DNA from: Pseudomonadota bacterium
GTDB taxonomy: Bacteria; Pseudomonadota; Gammaproteobacteria; Halothiobacillales; Halothiobacillaceae
NCBI GenBank assembly: GCA_021795795.1
Contig: JAJYPA010000429.1
Span: 1 to 7,187, forward strand
Reading direction: 5' to 3'
DNA length: 7,187 nucleotides
A program made the translations under genes and the position numbers. The notes beneath the pieces were generated by a model. It was given only the letters and a program-made list of their open reading frames with translations, was not told where the DNA came from and made no database searches. Every line of letters begins with the position of its first letter. The stretch's first letter is position 1. Below are positions 1-7,187 of the stretch, piece by piece.

Positions 1-2
1 GT

Positions 3-53
3 ATCCTTCATCCGTGGCCGAGCGAGCGATTTGCCGTCAAACACCCGAGGTAG
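3..53 (+). CDS. C-terminal end of group II intron maturase/reverse transcriptase (partial)
   Basis: The frame from base 3 encodes ILHPWPSERFAVKHPR and stops at TAG (51-53), directly before domain V. A short basic tail with an HPWP..RF pattern is what I recall at the end of several bacterial intron-encoded proteins, which have reverse transcriptase, maturase and often endonuclease domains. Only 16 residues are present, so the call rests mainly on position. Alternatively this is non-coding domain IV sequence. Confidence 0.4.
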   Translation: MLHPWPSERFAVKHPR

Positions 54-126
54 GAGCCCAGTGCGTTAGTTGCGCACGCTGGGATCTGTGCGGGGGGCGT
101 CCGGTAACGGGCGTCCCTACCGCGAT
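54..126 (+). ncRNA. Group II intron domains V and VI
   Basis: Domain V: bases 54-61 (starting GAGCCC) pair with 79-86 in eight positions with one mismatch (G56-A84, normally a G-U wobble). C77-G78 form the expected two-base bulge, and 62-65 pair with 73-76 under a small loop. The AGC at 55-57 is the catalytic triad position. Domain VI: 90-93 pair with 120-123, and 94-102 pair with 109-117 around the loop 103-108, leaving T118-A119 bulged; A119 is the predicted branch point. Both folds were worked out by hand. The domain V loop is not a GNRA tetraloop, which is a little unusual. Confidence 0.85.
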
Positions 127-150
127 CTAAGCAGGGGACTTACGATTTAA
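127..150. other. 3' exon / gap between intron and EVE gene
   Basis: These 24 bases separate the predicted intron end from the stop codon of the converging EVE gene. I see no hairpin followed by a T-run on either strand, so no intrinsic terminator for the operon is visible. Transcription from the operon may run into the antisense strand of the intron, and the reverse. Confidence 0.5.
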
Positions 151-609
151 TTACTTAGGAGAGTATATATCCTTAATTGCACCTATAATCAATTCAGCAT
201 CGGCGGCCACCAACTTTCTAGGAGAATGCCTCAGCACTTGGCGCCAGTCTTTCCCCTTTGATAAAAAATCAAGCCTTGCAACAAAATTATGTATTTTTAG
301 CCATTGCACCTTCTGCAAGATTAGCAATGGCTTCGTATCTATTTGATATGGATATGGTTCATCATAAACCAACCCCATTTTTGATCTTCTTGGTTTATCC
401 GAAACGACTTCTCGAATATCGGAAAAACAACCATACCCACTTGAAATATAAGTAATTATAAGGTCTCTGGATTTCATTTCCTCGGCTACCTTCAATTTAC
501 GATCTGATATCCCTAGAAATGAAAAACCTGTTTTTTCATCTGTTTTCCAGTTTTCATATCTTTCAATTGAAAGCCAATACATCTCCACATCCCCCAATTT
601 GCTATACAT
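151..609 (-). CDS. EVE-domain (PUA-like) protein
   Basis: A 152-residue protein filled by one EVE-like domain. Visible hallmarks are an opening YWL (11-13), a conserved-type W21, FLGIS (31-35), a strand-turn segment around SRDLIITYISSGYGCF (47-62) running into a REVVSD strand (66-71), YPYQIDTKPL (86-95), and an RLDFL..KDW..VLR.SPRKL stretch (112-133) before a last acidic helix. EVE domains belong to the PUA/YTH/ASCH superfamily and are thought to bind modified bases such as modified cytosines; many sit in modification-dependent defence loci. It is the last cluster gene, 23 bases after the second methylase. The ATG at 609 has AGGA only three bases away; an ATG at 582, eight bases after a GGGGG, is a fair alternative and starts right at the domain. 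GC is about 38% by hand count over 181-600, far below its neighbours, which suggests separate origin. A reader role is inference. Confidence 0.75.
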   Translation of the reverse strand: MYSKLGDVEMYWLSIERYENWKTDEKTGFSFLGISDRKLKVAEEMKSRDLIITYISSGYGCFSDIREVVSDKPRRSKMGLVYDEPYPYQIDTKPLLILQKVQWLKIHNFVARLDFLSKGKDWRQVLRHSPRKLVAADAELIIGAIKDIYSPK

Positions 610-632
610 TGGTCCTAGCTGCCTGCGCCCGC

Positions 633-1799
633 TTAACGTTTTACCACAAGCAGTACGTGCTCATGGCTTATTCGGCTGTTCTTCACATTAAAGGCACGCT
701 TGGTCGAATGAAGTGTACGTATCCACCGTCTCTTTTCTACTAAACCTTTTTCAGACAGCAGATCAATGAAACGATCACCTACATGAACTGCTTGTTTCGA
801 GACAATTGCATCTCCGATAACAATCAAGCAGTGGCCGCCTTTCTTAAGAACACGCACCCACTCTTTGAAGCAGGCGTCCATGTCCTCGAAGTAACCATCC
901 GGCGTGGCGTTATTTCTCGTAAACTCATCGTGGCTACCAATCTCGCGGTCTCTGGCGAATTCCACGCTTTCATCCCCGCCAATCCAGTGGAGCCGTTGAC
1001 GATGGTATTTATGGTAGTCATAGGCATTCAGATATGGAGGTGACGTGACAATTAGCGAGACGCTACCATCCGCAATGAACGGAACGGAACGGGAGTCGGC
1101 CTGGATCACCTCCACCGCGCCGCGCCCACGAACCATGACGTCGGGAATGCGGGCCATAACGTCCGCGAGGCGCGAGCGAAACGCTAAGTCTACCTCATCA
1201 GCTGACACCTCCCGCAATACGCGGGAATAGCGCGTGTCGCTATCCTGGTAGGAAACCCGCACAATGATCGAGGAAAAAACCGCCATCAGCAAGACCCGGA
1301 CAGGCTCCTTCTCCGCAAGGATTAGTCCCTTGAGAGCTGCGAGCCGCTCAACCGTAATGGGGTTAAACCAGTAGTGGAAATTCTTATTCGTCGGGATCAT
1401 GTCTGGACGCGGTGGAGCGAAGTCTAACCCCCTCGAGATCTTGACGGCGAAGCGCCCGATGGCTTCAAGGTCGGCCTTCGAATATAGGGCGGTCTTGGCC
1501 CTGGATGCGAGGATTGCCACAGCATTGTTGTCGGTACCCACTCCGTCCCGCCCCGCGAGACTCGCCTCGAGGACAGTCGTGCCACAGCCGTTGAACGGAT
1601 CGTAGACAACGTCGCCTGGCTTGGTCCAGAGTTTGATCGCCCGCCTCGGAATTTGCGGGATAAACTTGGCGGGATATGGATGCAGTGCGTGAAGGTGCTC
1701 GTTGGTCTCCTCCTCATGGAAGTTCCATTCCCATCCGTTGGCGACGAGGGCGTCCTCGTCCTCGCGGGTGTAGATGGCTTTTCGAACAAGCGTCGTCAT
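633..1799 (-). CDS. DNA amino-methyltransferase (DPF-G-G / TSPPY type), second of pair
   Basis: A 388-residue S-adenosylmethionine-dependent methylase predicted to modify N4 of cytosine or N6 of adenine in DNA. After an HALHPYPAKFIPQIPR lead-in (37-52) comes motif I, DPFNGCGTT (67-75), the cofactor loop, followed by GVGTDNN (86-92). Motif IV, TSPPY (252-256), is the catalytic loop. The end shows a LKKGGHCLIVIGD strand region (318-330) and a closing SHEHVLLVVKR typical of these enzymes. About 175 residues lie between motifs I and IV and may hold the target recognition part. The ATG overlaps the previous gene's stop as ATGA (1799-1796); an upstream ATG at 1898 is open but lies inside the previous gene. 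No strong ribosome site is seen, so translation is probably coupled. Target sequence and base cannot be told from sequence. Fairly sure of methylase, less of substrate. Confidence 0.88.
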   Translation of the reverse strand: MTTLVRKAIYTREDEDALVANGWEWNFHEEETNEHLHALHPYPAKFIPQIPRRAIKLWTKPGDVVYDPFNGCGTTVLEASLAGRDGVGTDNNAVAILASRAKTALYSKADLEAIGRFAVKISRGLDFAPPRPDMIPTNKNFHYWFNPITVERLAALKGLILAEKEPVRVLLMAVFSSIIVRVSYQDSDTRYSRVLREVSADEVDLAFRSRLADVMARIPDVMVRGRGAVEVIQADSRSVPFIADGSVSLIVTSPPYLNAYDYHKYHRQRLHWIGGDESVEFARDREIGSHDEFTRNNATPDGYFEDMDACFKEWVRVLKKGGHCLIVIGDAIVSKQAVHVGDRFIDLLSEKGLVEKRRWIRTLHSTKRAFNVKNSRISHEHVLLVVKR

Positions 1800-3391
1800 G
1801 CTTGGAAACACAGGATAGTTTCGGAGGACCCGCGGTTCTCGCGGAAGATGTCGCGCGAGACGATCAGCTCCATAGGAATTTGCTCTACGGGAGCCCATCC
1901 CGCAGCCGCGCCCAAATCGAAGAGGAAGCGGTTGGTCGGGATCTCAATCTTCTCGCCACCAACTTCCGTGCTGTTGTTGCCCACCACGTAATAGCCGTAG
2001 GCTCCGCGTTTCATCATCTCGCGGGCAGAGCGCATCGCGTCGAGCATAGATAGAAAATACTTGCCTAACAGAGCCGGGAGATTGCGGCGCCGGAAGCCCA
2101 CCCCCTCGCCATGGTTTGCCTCGGCGATCCGATCAATCAGGGCTGAGATTTCCTCTGGCAGATCGGCTCGGCGGGACTCGTAGACGGCCCAAGCCTCGCG
2201 GCGCTCGCGCTCGGAGACTTCTCGGGTGCCCACCATGTCGCGCTCCACCTCTCCATGCTTTTTGCGCGGCAGCAGCCTTAGAACGATTAGGCTAAGGCGG
2301 TCGGTGTCCAGATATGGAAGAGCGGTCGCATAGGGCGGCGAAGTAATCAGCAGGTCGACCTTTCCCCAATACTCGGGGAACATCGAGGCAACATCCACCG
2401 CGTTGCCACGGCGAATTTCGACCTTCGCGGGACCTTGGTGTTTGAGCACAGACAGATATGGACGAATTCGGTCGACCTGAGCCATTGCCTCGGCCAAAAA
2501 ACGCTCCTGTGCCGTCCCCATGTCGTAGGGCAGGATTTCCTTGCGCACGCGCAGGTCAGTGGCCTTCTGCCACGACACCGAACGCAGGATGTTGCTCAGG
2601 CATACGCAAAAAAAACCGCGATAGAGCGGCGAGCGGATTTTGCTGACCTCCCAGACGATCGAGGCTAGGTCCGCGATCGACTTTGGGTCGAACCACATGC
2701 CGAGATAACGCAGATCGTCCCCCCCCCAAACCTTGGATGGGTCGACCAGATCGAACTTGAATTCCGGAAGCCGGTCGACAGTTTGCTCCTTGAATTCCTT
2801 GGGATCAATCGCAGGAATCGACGCCTTGACAGATGCGATCAAGGTAGAAAGTGGGTTTAGGTCCGCTCCGATCGCTGCCATTCCGGCGGCGACGGCCTCG
2901 CAAGCCGTAGTCCCACTTCCACTCATCGGATCAAGCACCAACGACCCTTCGGGAATGCCAGATAGGTTGATGAGGCTACGCACAAGTTGCGGGAAGAATT
3001 TGCCGCGGTATTCGTGTAGGTCGTGGGGTCCGTAGCGCAGACGCCGAGCTCGGTGCAAACCGGAGCGTTCGTTGGCGGCCGCCGCACCATTTTGCGTGAA
3101 TTCGAGGACCTTTTGGAGCGTGGGCTCAAGCGAGTTACGCCCGACGCGCTGCCAGTAAGTCAGCCTCGCACGCAGCATCTCGTCGGAGATATCCGTGCAG
3201 GCGAACCAATAGCCACATTCTTCGCGGATCTCATCTCCAGGATTCAGCAGAGCACGCAGCTCGCGAATGGCTAGATTCCGTTCAAACGGCTGCAAGTAAG
3301 GCTTGATCTCGAGAATGACCTCGTTCTCACCGCACAAAGGCAGTAGGGGCAGAGGGAGCGTGAAGCGTTCCTGGATGCTGCGAGCGATCAC
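1796..3391 (-). CDS. DNA amino-methyltransferase with N-terminal extension, first of pair
   Basis: A 531-residue methylase of the same general kind as the next gene. Residues 1-115 are an extension the partner lacks. Then follow GPHDLHEYRGKFFPQLVR (121-138), matching the HPYPAKFIPQ lead-in of the partner, motif I LDPMSGSGTT (153-162) with IGADLNP (174-180), and motif IV TSPPY (350-354). A charged helical insert (about 375-430) and a late strand GAYGYYVVGNN (463-473) complete it. GTG is chosen as start: GGAGG sits seven bases upstream (3403-3399), the codon overlaps the previous stop as GTGA (3391-3388), and the only upstream in-frame ATG (3436) falls well inside the previous gene without such a site. 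The gene ends in an ATGA overlap with the second methylase. Both cofactor and catalytic motifs are intact, so it should be active. The base and target are unknown. Confidence 0.86.
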   Translation of the reverse strand: MIARSIQERFTLPLPLLPLCGENEVILEIKPYLQPFERNLAIRELRALLNPGDEIREECGYWFACTDISDEMLRARLTYWQRVGRNSLEPTLQKVLEFTQNGAAAANERSGLHRARRLRYGPHDLHEYRGKFFPQLVRSLINLSGIPEGSLVLDPMSGSGTTACEAVAAGMAAIGADLNPLSTLIASVKASIPAIDPKEFKEQTVDRLPEFKFDLVDPSKVWGGDDLRYLGMWFDPKSIADLASIVWEVSKIRSPLYRGFFCVCLSNILRSVSWQKATDLRVRKEILPYDMGTAQERFLAEAMAQVDRIRPYLSVLKHQGPAKVEIRRGNAVDVASMFPEYWGKVDLLITSPPYATALPYLDTDRLSLIVLRLLPRKKHGEVERDMVGTREVSERERREAWAVYESRRADLPEEISALIDRIAEANHGEGVGFRRRNLPALLGKYFLSMLDAMRSAREMMKRGAYGYYVVGNNSTEVGGEKIEIPTNRFLFDLGAAAGWAPVEQIPMELIVSRDIFRENRGSSETILCFQA

Positions 3392-4410
3392 CGACCATCC
3401 TCCGTCCGAAGGTTGGCGATCAGACGCGAGGCGCAAACCGCCTCGACTGGAGTAAGATCGACTCCAAAAGGAATGGGAACGTCGCGCATCTGGAACGCGG
3501 GAATGTCCTGTGGGTTCTCGGCGAGGCTTTTAGCGTAGATTGCCAACCGATCAATGATAGAGGCCCGTTTAGCCGGATCGTCTACTTTGTCCGACAGAAC
3601 AGCCACATGGCAGGCCACCATCGGCGAATGAATCGGCTTATCGCGAGAGGTTCGCTTGGCCGTTCCCATATATGCATCGACCTTCGAGGCCATGGAAAAG
3701 TCGCACCACCCATGCTCGAGCCCGACTTCGCAGGCCTCAATATGCTCATCTATCCCGACGGGAAACAGCTCCTCGCGGTCGAGGATACGCAAAGCCGCCA
3801 GACGGAACTGCTCGCTGGTCATGTATCCAAGCTGAGGGACCTTGCGCGGATCGCACAGGCTGGTTGCAAGTTCGGTCCGCAGGGCATCGGTCAGGCGCCA
3901 CGCCTCTGAAAGGATTTCGGCACCCATCACGGCGGACATGGAGAGTTCAGCCTTCATCCGGTGGCGCAGGACGGTCAGACTGACGTCCGCGTCGTAGATC
4001 AACCCGTTAGCGCCTTTTTTGGCGAGGATCATCTCCGCGAACTTGTCGTGGTCGACAGCCTCTGCCCTGGAGAGCGTCTCGACCCACCAGCGCGTGTGGA
4101 TCGAATGGACGGTCGATTGTTGAAACTGGCCCGCGAACTTGTACAGACGGTCTCCGTAGCCGACGGAGTAAGCCAAGGGCCGATCGCCCTCAGTGAGTAG
4201 GTCCTCCATTACGGAAAGCCAGTCGCAGGTCGGACGCCCGTCGAGGACGAGATCAATCAGTGTCGCTTGGTGACAGACGGAGGCCGCTGCCCTCCCATCG
4301 TCAGCGTCACTGATCGCTTGCTCGCGCCATGTGCGCAAGTAGTTCTCGTAGGCAGGATGGGAGAAACCGGACTCGAGGACTACGCCTGGAAGAATCGGAT
4401 GGGCGGCCAT
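3388..4410 (-). CDS. Unrecognised 340-residue protein of the methylase operon
   Basis: I do not recognise this protein. It looks soluble and mostly helical, with no signal peptide or membrane segment. Notable stretches are YSVGYGDRLYKFAGQFQQ (81-98), an aromatic HTRWWVETLSRAE (105-117), KKGANGLIYDADVSLTVLRH (131-150) and a Cys/Trp patch EHGWCDF (232-238). I find no known nuclease, ATPase or methylase motif. The start is the ATG at 4410: GGAGGAG lies eight bases before it and it overlaps the upstream stop as TGATG. A longer open frame to 4488 exists but would sit inside gene 1. It ends in GTGA with the first methylase. Its place between the LAGLIDADG-like protein and two methylases, with tight coupling, suggests a dedicated subunit, for example a specificity or nuclease partner; this is inference. 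Confidence 0.85.
   Translation of the reverse strand: MAAHPILPGVVLESGFSHPAYENYLRTWREQAISDADDGRAAASVCHQATLIDLVLDGRPTCDWLSVMEDLLTEGDRPLAYSVGYGDRLYKFAGQFQQSTVHSIHTRWWVETLSRAEAVDHDKFAEMILAKKGANGLIYDADVSLTVLRHRMKAELSMSAVMGAEILSEAWRLTDALRTELATSLCDPRKVPQLGYMTSEQFRLAALRILDREELFPVGIDEHIEACEVGLEHGWCDFSMASKVDAYMGTAKRTSRDKPIHSPMVACHVAVLSDKVDDPAKRASIIDRLAIYAKSLAENPQDIPAFQMRDVPIPFGVDLTPVEAVCASRLIANLRTEDGR
3399..3403 (-). promoter_or_regulatory. Ribosome binding site of the first methylase (fixes GTG start)
   Basis: GGAGG, seven bases before the GTG at 3391. It lies inside the last codons of the preceding gene and settles the start on a GTG rather than the far upstream ATG at 3436. The overlapping GTGA points to re-initiation by terminating ribosomes. 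Confidence 0.75.
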
Positions 4411-5990
4411 CAGTAGAACTCCTCCATGGGATCCGCGACGATTCCGCCAAAGACCGTGTGCATCAAAAGCGGGAAATACCAGCGGCAAAGGGCTGATGAT
4501 GCCCAGAAGTCGATCCGGGCCACTCCGGATCCGGTAGGCTCAACATGAGAGTAGCGGTCTGAGTATTCAGAACTGAGGAGGCTAGCGCCTTCGAGTGGGG
4601 CATCGGCAACGTCTAATGCCCACTGCTTGATCGCCAGCGAAATTTCCATGGTCCGTAGCTTGCCATCGCCGCTGGCGCCGCCACGCAGCATTGGGACGCC
4701 GTGCTTAAGGCCATTGACAACCAACTCGGGAAAGTATTGGCTGCCGACCTTGACCTTCCAGGCCTCAAGGCAATCCTCGGGGAAGAACACCTTGCGCAGG
4801 CTCCGGAGCATCAACTCGAGGCTTGCCCCCTCCGACGAGGTAAAGCCCATCGCCATCGCTCCTGGGTTGTTCCCGAACATCTTGAAAAGGGCCTCCTTGG
4901 GTGTCGAGCCTTCGGCCAGATAAAGGCCGGCGACATAGCACCACAGCGGATCAACGCGCAGACTGCGGCGCAGTCGGATTTCGCTCGAGCGACGCCATTG
5001 ACCAAGCAGCGCATTGCCGTCGCGGGTGATTTTCGAAGGACGCTCCTTGTTGATCTTGCCGAATGGGTTGTTATTGTAGAAGTCTAGAAGATCAAGAGTC
5101 TGTCCGACTTCTGATGGCCTAGCGACCCAACAAACGAGCCCTTGGCTTGATGTTTGAACATCGCGCAAAATAGTATCTTCGATCTCGTGCATCATTTTGA
5201 GGAACAGCTCACCGATACCATTCAGTCCCCCGAGGTGGATCTCGTCGGAACGGCTCGATCCGCCGGGCAGGCGCGCACCCTTCTTGAAAGGGCGACGCAA
5301 GGATGCGGTGATCCTGATGTCTGCGGTCGGCTCGATGCCGACGCTAGCGAGCTCGGCGACCTTCTCGGCCACGAAGATCGCCTCCATGGCTTCCTGGTGC
5401 TGATAATAGAACGCCAGATGGTCCTCGTTGGTTCCGGAGACATCGGGGCGCACTTCGGCTATATATTGCATGTCCTTGGGGTTGGGATTGGGGCGGACTG
5501 CATTGAGCGCCATTGTCGCGGGTGCCGCACTGCCAATGGTCTCAAGGTAATAAGCATTCAGGCGCTCCTGTCCCTCTCCATCCATGAAATAGGCGCTGTC
5601 CTCGCCGAGAGAGAACGTGAAGCGGATGTTGCCGGGGAAAAGGCGGCGAAACTGGTCGACGGCGAACCGGACCAGATGCTTCTCCTTTTGGGAGAAGGAG
5701 ATCATCGGTATGATCCGCCCCGGTTCATTATGATCTTCAGATCCCTTGGCTCCGTCCCCGCTATATAGCCCGAAAAAGGCCACCAGCGACTCGTCGAGTT
5801 CAATGACCTTGGGAATCGACATGGCATCCCCGTTACCGTCTTCTTTACGGACAATCAGATTGTCACCACTCTCGTCGAAGACGTACTCTCGCCGGTATTG
5901 CCGATCCTTCGCGTCGGTGATGACACAGCCGGTGACTCGCCCCCGCACCGCGCACAGATATTCATAGACATTCAAATACCCCAGAATCAC
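4410..5990 (-). CDS. LAGLIDADG-like protein with two motifs, first gene of the operon
   Basis: A 526-residue protein with two LAGLIDADG-type motifs. The first, LVAFFGLYSGDG (69-80), ends in acidic D79 and is followed by PMISFSQKEKHLVRFAVDQF (95-114), a strand-plus-helix pattern of homing endonuclease folds. The second, WCYVAGLYLAEG (350-361), has acidic E360 and is followed by MGFTSSEGASLELMLRSL (381-398) and KVKVGSQYFPELV (412-424). Both acidic positions expected to hold the metal are kept, so cleavage is possible. The motifs are about 280 residues apart, while two-motif homing enzymes usually have about 100, so there is a long insert. The gene is free-standing, not in an intron or intein. 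The GTG start has AAGGGG seven bases upstream (6003-5998); no ATG, GTG or TTG lies further up before an in-frame TGA at 6045. It may be the nuclease of the cluster, or only a DNA-binding protein. Confidence 0.72.
   Translation of the reverse strand: MILGYLNVYEYLCAVRGRVTGCVITDAKDRQYRREYVFDESGDNLIVRKEDGNGDAMSIPKVIELDESLVAFFGLYSGDGAKGSEDHNEPGRIIPMISFSQKEKHLVRFAVDQFRRLFPGNIRFTFSLGEDSAYFMDGEGQERLNAYYLETIGSAAPATMALNAVRPNPNPKDMQYIAEVRPDVSGTNEDHLAFYYQHQEAMEAIFVAEKVAELASVGIEPTADIRITASLRRPFKKGARLPGGSSRSDEIHLGGLNGIGELFLKMMHEIEDTILRDVQTSSQGLVCWVARPSEVGQTLDLLDFYNNNPFGKINKERPSKITRDGNALLGQWRRSSEIRLRRSLRVDPLWCYVAGLYLAEGSTPKEALFKMFGNNPGAMAMGFTSSEGASLELMLRSLRKVFFPEDCLEAWKVKVGSQYFPELVVNGLKHGVPMLRGGASGDGKLRTMEISLAIKQWALDVADAPLEGASLLSSEYSDRYSHVEPTGSGVARIDFWASSALCRWYFPLLMHTVFGGIVADPMEEFY
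4419..4425 (-). promoter_or_regulatory. Ribosome binding site of the 340-residue protein (fixes start)
   Basis: GGAGGAG, eight bases before the ATG at 4410, placed within the last codons of the LAGLIDADG-like gene. It is the strongest such site in the cluster and supports the short start over the open frame reaching 4488. Confidence 0.78.
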
Positions 5991-6044
5991 AGCCTTACCC
6001 CTTATATTTTTGATAAAAAGCAGTCTGATGTCGAGACAGCGATT
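5991..6044 (-). promoter_or_regulatory. Leader of the operon; no convincing promoter
   Basis: Only 54 bases lie between the first cluster gene and the end of the IS30 transposase remnant. They hold the ribosome site AAGGGG (6003-5998). TATAAG (6006-6001) resembles a -10 box but is too close to the start codon to leave room for that site. TCGACA (6034-6029) resembles a -35 box, but its -10 partner at 17 bases is a poor AAAAAT. The promoter may therefore lie inside the IS remnant. Confidence 0.3.
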
Positions 6045-6949
6045 TCAATTCTGAAGTGCAACATTGCTGTTTAACTCTTTGATCTTCTGTGCCATTACTT
6101 CTGCTGGCGTACGAAATCCCAAGGTTTTTCTTGATCGATTATTCATCTCCTCGGCAACCTTGGTCAAGTACTGATGTGAGTATGGGTGCGTTTTTCCAGC
6201 TCCCCATGGCGCGCCTTCTCCCTACCCTGGTCATAGATCATCATCTTCCTCAATGCCTTGGGGAGCGTGCACAGGCATCTGGTGATCCCTTCCAGCACGG
6301 CCTCCGCCGAGGAGTCGTCCACCTTGGCCAGGATGACGGAGCGCGTGCTGCGGTCCACCAAGGTGCCGATGACGCTCCCATTGAAGACGACCTTGATGAG
6401 ATCTCCTTCTCAGTGACCAGGAACTTCTCTGGACGGCGCTTCCTCAGGCCGCTCCAGGATGGAACGCATGTTTCGAAAGCCACCCCGGCGATCCTTGCCG
6501 CGACTCCGGGTCCGCCGTTTCTGGTGTCCCTGCCGCAGGACTACGATTAGCATCTTCTTGAGCTCCCCATCTGGGTGGGCGTAGATATGCTGGTAGATGG
6601 TCTCGTGGATGACCCGCTGACCGAGGTCATCTAGAAGATCCACCCGTACCCTCCCGGCAATCTGCTCTGGTGACCAGGTACGCTCCAGAATCAGCGCATT
6701 CACCTGCTCCGTCAAGGGGGTTCCAGGCAGTAGCTTGCACGGGCCACGCCGCCGATGGGATCGCGCCCATTCACCACCATGGACCGCATCATAGCTACTC
6801 TGGAGCAACCCTCTCCGGTATTCCCGGCTCAACGTACTGGGATTACGACCCATACTTCTCGCCAAGAACCTCAGACTCATCCCCTCGTTCAAACCACGCT
6901 GCAACTGATTCCGTTCATCCCCACTCAACTGACTGTAACGCTTGCCCAT
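6045..6949 (-). pseudogene. IS30-family transposase, broken by nonsense codon and deletion
   Basis: The intact protein would cut and join the IS ends with a DDE catalytic core. The N-terminal helix-turn-helix is complete: YSQLSGDERNQLQ followed by an SLRFLARSMGRNPSTLSREY segment (about residues 5-44). ERTWSPEQIAGR and a HETIYQHIYA segment are also typical. The core motif GHWEGDLI is interrupted: TGA at 6412-6410 stands where the Trp codon is expected, and the frame goes on to IGTLVDRSTRSVILAKV and a MIYDQG segment, which keep the second Asp. Near 6167-6185 the frame shifts; the next frame gives YLTKVAEEMNNRSRKTLGFR and ends NVALQN at TGA 6047-6045. About 30 residues, including the expected third acidic residue, seem lost at that joint. 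A GGAGG lies just before the ATG at 6949. Not functional unless both faults are bypassed. Confidence 0.88.
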
Positions 6950-7029
6950 CCATCACCTCCGGCCCCTTTGGACCATAGGTGTTGCAGTTCATTCCGGAGC
7001 GCGCCCTGCTTAGGACTGAGGATGGTACA

Positions 7030-7069
7030 GGAATGTTATACTGCGCTTTGGAATGTTACACTGCACTCT
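7030..7069 (+). repeat. Tandem 20-bp repeat, two copies
   Basis: Units 7030-7049 and 7050-7069 both start GGAATGTTA and match at 17 of 20 positions. The second copy contains the sequence that pairs with the left end of the IS30 element, so the first copy looks like a duplicated subterminal repeat, possibly a transposase binding site. Confidence 0.7.
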
Positions 7070-7078
7070 TAGTGCAGT
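7060..7078. repeat. Short palindrome, 8-bp arms
   Basis: ACTGCACT (7060-7067) and AGTGCAGT (7071-7078) are perfect inverted copies around CTT. It lies on the presumed right edge of the IS30 element, which may have inserted next to or within it. There is no T-run, so a terminator is unlikely. Confidence 0.6.
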
Positions 7079-7084
7079 ACAATT

Positions 7085-7130
7085 GTAAACGTTCAGCCAA
7101 CCCACCCTTGCGGGTTGGCTGAACGTTTAC
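7085..7130. repeat. Perfect 19-bp inverted repeat with 8-base loop
   Basis: Bases 7085-7103 (GTAAACGTTCAGCCAACCC) are exactly repeated in inverse at 7112-7130, around ACCCTTGC. A stem this long and perfect is far beyond chance here. It lacks a following T-run, so it is not a typical intrinsic terminator. The outer ends read GTAA...TTAC, the ends reported for IS66-family elements, so it could be a collapsed IS end pair; a bidirectional terminator or a protein-binding hairpin are alternatives. Confidence 0.85.
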
Positions 7131-7187
7131 GCTCGGGTAGCAAGACATTATGCGGATGGCACTAGCAGTCTTTATCCTGTCCGTGAA
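7131..7187 (+). other. Right edge, possible start of a gene running out of the window
   Basis: An open frame from ATG 7150 (or 7156) encodes MRMALAVFILSV before the window ends. The hydrophobic run could begin a signal peptide, but only 12 codons are present and no clear ribosome site precedes it. I would not call a gene on this alone. Confidence 0.15.

Follow-up and report, generated by a model that had tools for sequence, protein, structure and literature searches.

Restriction enzymes have been described in a few nuclease folds. Many Type IIA enzymes work with one or two methylases, each of which modifies one strand, according to a review of restriction whose main text does not mention LAGLIDADG (PMC4081073). 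For the Type IV restriction enzyme GmrSD, LAGLIDADG and HNH motifs had at one time been proposed, but the LAGLIDADG claim was later rejected (PMC4619093); that rejected claim apart, our full-text searches of open-licence papers brought up no LAGLIDADG restriction subunit among the matches listed. LAGLIDADG domains have been reported fused to ATPases in mobile elements (PMC8297831). Here we analyze a run of four genes, g1-g2-M1-M2, in a 7,187-nucleotide stretch of DNA from a member of the Halothiobacillaceae (contig JAJYPA010000429.1, positions 1 to 7,187 of the forward strand), which we call the window. We think it probable that the four genes make up a complete restriction-modification system with a new restriction module. 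That it is also the first restriction system with a LAGLIDADG nuclease, held in an obligate complex with a toroid subunit of the prenyltransferase fold, is a more specific proposal whose chances we place slightly below even.

The window contains five genes, all on the minus strand, and the run g1-g2-M1-M2 occupies positions 5990-633. A first-pass annotation, made from the letters alone, had described four genes joined by overlaps of 1 to 4 bases and a fifth following in the same direction, and this layout held (overlaps of 1 base for g1/g2, 4 bases for g2/M1, and 4 bases for M1/M2, with the fifth gene beginning 23 bases past M2). Start codons were chosen by the lengths of homologues (340 amino acids for g2 and 531 for M1). 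The features are as follows:

g1: 4410..5990, minus strand; LAGLIDADG-like protein of 526 amino acids, GTG start at 5990, proposed restriction nuclease
g1 motif 1: residues 74-82, GLYSGDGAK
g1 motif 2: residues 355-363, GLYLAEGST
g2: 3388..4410, minus strand; 340 amino acids, ATG at 4410, predicted alpha/alpha toroid of the prenyltransferase beta-subunit type, proposed partner of g1
M1: 1796..3391, minus strand; DNA amino-methyltransferase of 531 amino acids, GTG at 3391, TSPPY class, with an N-terminal extension
M2: 633..1799, minus strand; DNA amino-methyltransferase of 388 amino acids, ATG at 1799, TSPPY class
EVE-like gene: 151..609, minus strand; 152 amino acids, probable passenger outside the four-gene unit

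Neither g1 nor g2 of the window matched any model of Pfam, PADLOC, or NCBIfam at E-values up to 1, or of PHROGs at E-values up to 0.1. The PADLOC library (of 2023) also returned no family for the EVE-like protein at E-values up to 1, and its matches to M1 and M2 were mainly type II methylase models. We infer a mechanism in which M1 and M2 would mark host DNA, each on one strand of an asymmetric site, and in which the unmarked form of that same site would be bound and cut by the two halves of g1. As a LAGLIDADG-like nuclease, g1 would contribute one metal-binding acid per motif; we take D79 and E360 to be these acids by analogy with the LAGLIDADG family. The g2 protein would be the obligate alpha/alpha-toroid partner of g1, acting in assembly or recognition.

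Recurrence of the four-gene unit

The g1-g2-M1-M2 run is a real, recurrent four-gene system. A g2 counterpart and M1 were present in all 10 loci with a full-length g1, and M2 was present in nine of them; the contig of the tenth (L002) ends in M1. The hosts belong to the Bacillota, Chloroflexota, Latescibacteria, and a diverged lineage of Poribacteria. The first-pass suggestion of a modification or defence system that combines a protein bearing LAGLIDADG motifs with two methylases is thereby supported: the combination is conserved in hosts of several phyla, and g1 and g2, rather than occurring mostly apart from the methylases, had M1 beside them in 10/10 full-length loci.

A g1 pattern scan of 84,980 species genomes yielded six loci, and 1 of 72,556 plasmid records carried g1. 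Loci with g1-g2-M1(-M2) were found in Alicyclobacillus (L001), metagenome-assembled genomes of Clostridia (L002), Anaerolineales (L003), and Latescibacteria (L005), a Lachnospiraceae bacterium (L004), and a Priestia plasmid (L007/L008). What is left at the sixth genome locus (L006) is a remnant containing g1 in two pieces. Three of the 10 loci (L003, L005, and Priestia) have a fusion of M1 and M2, which in Priestia was deduced from two pieces that span the record start. Decayed copies of the unit exist. At L069:6998-7666, a truncated g1 (222 amino acids) abuts a 335-amino-acid frame that appears transposase-like by eye. Within the Poribacteria, 4 of 84 genomes carried a full-length g1, 25-27% identical to that of the window, and the order in all four was g1, a gene of ~390 amino acids, M2, and M1. 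The methylase order is thus M1-M2 in the main lineage and M2-M1 in Poribacteria and in the loci with phospholipase-D-type (PLD-type) proteins described below. A relative that lacks the cassette (L074/L093) shares the synteny of five genes left of the L004 cassette; we rejected it as a clean empty site and regard it as a synteny break, because the sequence beyond the shared genes differs.

The linkage was also visible among closer relatives. A protein collection searched at E-values up to 0.001 held at least 363 relatives of g1, 194 of g2, and at least 1,902 of M1, a number that must take in other methylases. The best 120 matches were listed for each protein, so that partners ranked below 120 cannot appear among them; the listed g1 relatives were 62-88% identical to the window. 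Contigs were matched between the lists by equal size. Among the matches listed, contigs of at least 10 kb recurred in another list in 31 of 39 cases for M1, 30 of 41 for g2, and 29 of 48 for g1, and the full lists shared 47 contig sizes between g1 and g2, 41 between g1 and M1, and 53 between g2 and M1. Size-jitter controls on the full 120-entry lists gave means of 0.77-0.91 matches and never more than 6. In A. thiooxidans, the three genes bear the tags RIE95_09665 (g1), RIE95_09660 (g2), and RIE95_09655 (M1). Pairwise distances of g1, g2, and M1 correlated across the 31 contigs with all three (r of 0.79-0.87; maximum of 0.39 in 5,000 permutations, none of which reached the observed values), although shared descent by itself would also produce a correlation.

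Could the genes instead form a homing or mobile cassette, in which g1 would be a homing endonuclease that spreads them and the methylases would guard the occupied site or control expression? Homing enzymes are the best-known bearers of LAGLIDADG motifs, and the distribution is patchy: only the seed itself carried g1 among 397 sampled Lachnospiraceae genomes, and the other samples gave 1/59, 2/64 (one truncated), 5/84 (one remnant), 1/398, and 1/378, with the seed genome included in each count. No g1 relative was found in Escherichia coli at the DNA level. However, the partners were the same in 10/10 full-length loci at g1 identities down to ~25%, the neighbours differed between most loci by eye, no relative appeared in our scans of viruses and phages for g1 or of viruses for gene 2, and the window contained no intron match. 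We consider a homing cassette highly improbable and favour a restriction-modification unit.

LAGLIDADG-like motifs in g1 and the predicted fold of g2

The window g1 contains both heptads, GLYSGDG and GLYLAEG. Among 258 open frames of at least 250 amino acids in the scanned loci (LAGLIDADG-family and duplicate loci excluded), a heptad pattern that was written after g1 had been seen occurred twice in 10 frames, all of them g1, and once in 2 others. The strict form of motif 1 was present in 126 of 130 g1 sequences, that of motif 2 in 126, and both in 122. In 16 chosen sequences from both lineages, the invariant columns included GxYxGDGxK, Q101, and GxYLAEGxxK, and the motif acids D79 and E360 were invariant in 16/16. 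The two halves of g1 aligned in register with a P value of 0.0075 when the Poribacteria rows were included (reversed controls, 0.29 and 0.088). From 19 of 20 Chloroflexota segments (the other, L031, was read in a wrong frame), we built a LAGLIDADG_3 profile, which matched the N half at the motif with a P value of 0.012 (reversed controls, 0.22-0.4); an earlier run had given 0.0092.

Several observations weigh against placing g1 in the LAGLIDADG family. The P value of the internal repeat rose to 0.10-0.17 without the Poribacteria rows. For the C half, the profile reached a P value of only 0.045 at the motif, which one unrelated control equalled, and in the earlier run the C-half match (0.061) lay elsewhere, at 434-446; given this other stretch and unrelated controls of 0.045-0.71, the C-half match is not significant by itself. 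No curated LAGLIDADG model reached its cut-off for g1 members: LAGLIDADG_3 matched 2 of 56 (best E-value of 0.17), and better E-values came from TBP-TOTE (0.0067; 10 members) and DUF772 (0.0065; 9 members). Comparison with the PDB gave chance matches or none, and no sequence relative of g1. In addition, the two motifs are ~280 residues apart, a larger spacing than is known from homing endonucleases.

Because no curated model passes its cut-off and the profile matches are weak, we name g1 only LAGLIDADG-like, a designation suggested by its motifs together with those matches. The GmrSD case also calls for caution with motif-based LAGLIDADG calls such as this one. Of the first-pass proposal of a potential nuclease of LAGLIDADG type, the pair of motifs with invariant acids holds; membership in the LAGLIDADG family is a candidate assignment based on these motifs and on weak profile matches. 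A third stretch of g1, MLRGGASGDGK (434-444), was rejected as a motif because L003 and the four Poribacteria sequences all have Q in place of its acid.

The second gene, previously listed as unknown, is placed by structure prediction as a six-hairpin alpha/alpha toroid of the prenyltransferase type, with a sequence identity of 7% in the fold match. Its Poribacteria counterpart matched Pfam PF00432 (prenyltransferase alpha/alpha toroid) in 4/4 cases, with a best E-value of 2.9e-9; the L065 match scored 34.8 bits (cut-off, 26.5). On the other side, the Z baseline for helical models is ~14, the sequence link between g2 and the Poribacteria counterpart was no better than for shuffles, and the role that we assign to g2, in assembly or DNA recognition, is a guess.

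The main rivals to our interpretation are that g2 is the effector and that the unit is a methylation-guarded abortive system. In the former, g2 would be the catalytic or killing part, and g1 would only bind DNA as a specificity subunit. A charged conserved stretch of g2 at residues 232-263 and nine invariant residues (R149, R151, E155, D237, K243, D245, K252, R253, and D257) would fit such a role, and LAGLIDADG proteins can bind DNA without cutting it. However, both motifs of g1 keep their acids without exception in two lineages, as expected of an active site, and the toroid is not known to be a nuclease fold. We regard g2 as the effector as unlikely and retain g1 as the proposed nuclease.

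The methylase pair and its putative restriction slot

The window encodes two intact DNA amino-methylases, as the first-pass annotation had stated, with DPMSGSGTT, DPFNGCGTT, and TSPPY present. DPxxGSGTT and TSPPY of M1 were invariant in 13/13 aligned rows, and the strict patterns were found in 29 of 31 contig sequences; DxFxGxGTT and SPPY of M2 were invariant in 12/12. Many M1 relatives are labelled cytosine-N4-specific by their source, and M1 and M2 are probably cytosine-N4 methyltransferases. The two methylases, sometimes fused, would putatively serve one strand each.

Related methylase pairs provided a view of what can accompany such a module. We counted 12 loci in which an M2-M1 pair 31-43% identical to M1 occurs without g1. 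A PLD-type protein was the neighbour in 11 of them, comprising 8/8 viral contigs besides the phage-like contig L084 and 3/3 plasmids besides that of Priestia. Because of this adjacency, g1-g2 appears to fill the restriction slot of a modification module that is mostly joined to PLD-type proteins; no PLD family match was found among the five window proteins at E-values up to 1. The viral loci came from a scan with an M1 profile, which found nine loci. In eight of these (L085-L092), the M2-M1 pair or fusion lies within ~210 bases of the PLD-type protein (in L085, only the M2 end is visible, at the locus edge), and the viral PLD-type proteins are related to those of the three plasmid loci with E-values of 1.8e-14 or better. 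The nucleases of the Methylobacterium and Roseibium plasmids (L017 and L018) contain the BfiI DNA-binding domain (Pfam E-values of 2.1e-70 and 7.2e-72), and those of L089 and L092 are of the BfiI type by 54-64% identity; in total, 4 of the 11 PLD-type proteins are of this type. L085-L092 represent a recurrent BfiI-like arrangement in the viral collection, with fused methylases in L087, L088, L090, and L091.

This comparison has its counterweights. The other 7 of the 11 PLD-type proteins are that of Rhizobium (L016), which is labelled phospholipase D by its record and falls below Pfam cut-offs, and its relatives. The alignment used for the M1 scan held three PLD-locus rows, a source of bias; the window M1 alone also found L084-L086. 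The twelfth pair locus, L053 (32%, fused), has no PLD match.

At L053:6372-9272, the fused M2-M1-like methylase (966 amino acids) occurs without a g1, g2, or PLD match; on the other strand, it is followed by genes for a 659-amino-acid protein without a Pfam match and, two genes away, an AAA_5 ATPase. A more distant pair in Cryobacterium (L071) likewise has an AAA ATPase nearby. Other distant M1 matches, whose best stretches share 23-41% identity with M1 or M2, were left out of the slot count (L045-L048, with one methylase frame each, and L054 and L055, with two each); their neighbours gave no g1, g2, or PLD match. On a Helicobacter plasmid (L019:7050-8810), an M2-like methylase is followed by a 586-amino-acid protein without a Pfam match, possibly another restriction module.

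The phage-like contig L084 (15,318 bases) carries an intact M1 at L084:7321-8916, with 531 amino acids, no internal stop, and 83% identity to the window M1. Its DNA similarity to the window spans 1558-3415. The contig has only the first part of M2 (a 101-amino-acid frame), no g1, and no full g2. Its M1 lies directly upstream of a gene for the terminase large subunit (PHROG E-value of 1.3e-97), and matches to a small terminase (3.6e-9) and, weakly, to a portal protein (0.0013) were also detected. The ratio of nonsynonymous to synonymous substitution rates (dN/dS) for this M1 is 0.09 at a dS of 1.12, a value that averages both branches, host branch included. This lone M1 is as expected if a phage used it for self-protection. 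Against this, L084 could be a mis-assembly. A search of INPHARED phages for M1 at 1e-15 gave no match.

These observations bear on the second of the main rivals, in which a failure of marking would turn g1-g2 against the cell or another target, with no restriction of entering DNA. The linkage of four genes including methylases is equally expected of such an abortive or toxin system, and the toroid is similar to enzymes whose substrates are small molecules or peptides. In contrast, some related methylase pairs accompany restriction nucleases of the BfiI type, and a phage-like contig with M1 only fits protection of its own DNA. We judge the abortive system to be quite unlikely and prefer restriction by g1-g2.

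Surroundings of the unit and comparison with known systems

The first-pass annotation had pictured a defence island bordered by mobile elements, with an intron and a composition break, and proposed a search for other defence genes nearby. Such genes were found at some loci: the Priestia copy has an AAA ATPase and a McrC-family gene upstream, past one hypothetical gene, on a plasmid that also encodes a PifA-like protein, and in one of the four Poribacteria loci (L065:8304-11717) a TmtA-like GHKL ATPase follows M1 (PADLOC E-value of 1.5e-168). GHKL ATPases of the MORC kind have been reported with restriction systems (PMC2292703). Among 10 hand-picked neighbours, 4 had PADLOC matches.

A mobile element borders the window unit on one side but not on the other. 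At 6039-7006 lies an IS30-type transposase with broken frames, 68.6% identical at the DNA level to the Acidithiobacillus plasmid element IST3091; the frame at 6949-6410 scored 96.8 bits against a cut-off of 80. An intron was rejected, since Rfam gave no RNA family, introns included, in the window, or in 1-300 under relaxed thresholds. A composition break exists, with GC content falling from ~55% near 1000 to 38% in 201-600, but it spans the M2 end into the EVE-like gene, and GC content is 55-61% over most of the four-gene unit. A perfect inverted repeat of 19 bases with an 8-base loop is located at 7085-7130.

A gene for the proposed EVE protein does follow M2, but its Pfam EVE match (18.9 bits; E-value of 0.0016) is below the cut-off of 23 bits, and its match to NCBIfam PRK00809.1 (29.1 bits; E-value of 6.6e-7) is likewise below the threshold of that model. 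We rejected it as a fifth member of the unit: no EVE match occurred in L001-L008 (seven records of the main lineage, among them the remnant L006 and L002, which breaks off in M1) or on plasmids at 1e-5. The EVE-like gene is probably a passenger.

If confirmed, the proposed system would bring into restriction a further class and fold of nuclease together with a protein fold not expected there, and would connect bacterial immunity with homing endonucleases and with the folds of isoprenoid enzymes. It would also show that a methylase pair can swap the restriction module that it works with (PLD, LAGLIDADG-like with a toroid, or perhaps AAA-type), and would be a candidate source of new site-specific cutters with matched methylases. 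The unit offers a direct test of the kinship between homing and restriction endonucleases.

Compared with described systems, g1 resembles LAGLIDADG homing endonucleases in that each chain has two motifs with one invariant acid apiece and, by eye, a similar stretch after each motif ('SFSQKE...' and 'GFTSSE...'). It differs in partnering two DNA methylases and a toroid, in the ~280 residues between its motifs, and in passing the cut-off of no curated family model. GmrSD is likewise a restriction protein with an earlier motif-based LAGLIDADG claim (PMC4619093). Prenyltransferase and terpenoid cyclase toroids (PF00432) differ from g2, which is found in a gene context of DNA modification and shows 7% identity in the fold match. 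The presence of an AAA ATPase near two methylases, as in the distant relatives L053 and L071, is reminiscent of LlaJI/McrBC-like systems; the g1-g2-M1-M2 unit itself includes no AAA ATPase. The Type IIS restriction-modification systems of the BfiI/BmrI type have a related two-methylase module, in which the M1 of PLD loci is 31-43% identical to the window M1 and shares SPPY and the N-terminal extension; in the window, the order is M1-M2 instead of M2-M1, and g1 and g2 stand in place of the PLD protein.

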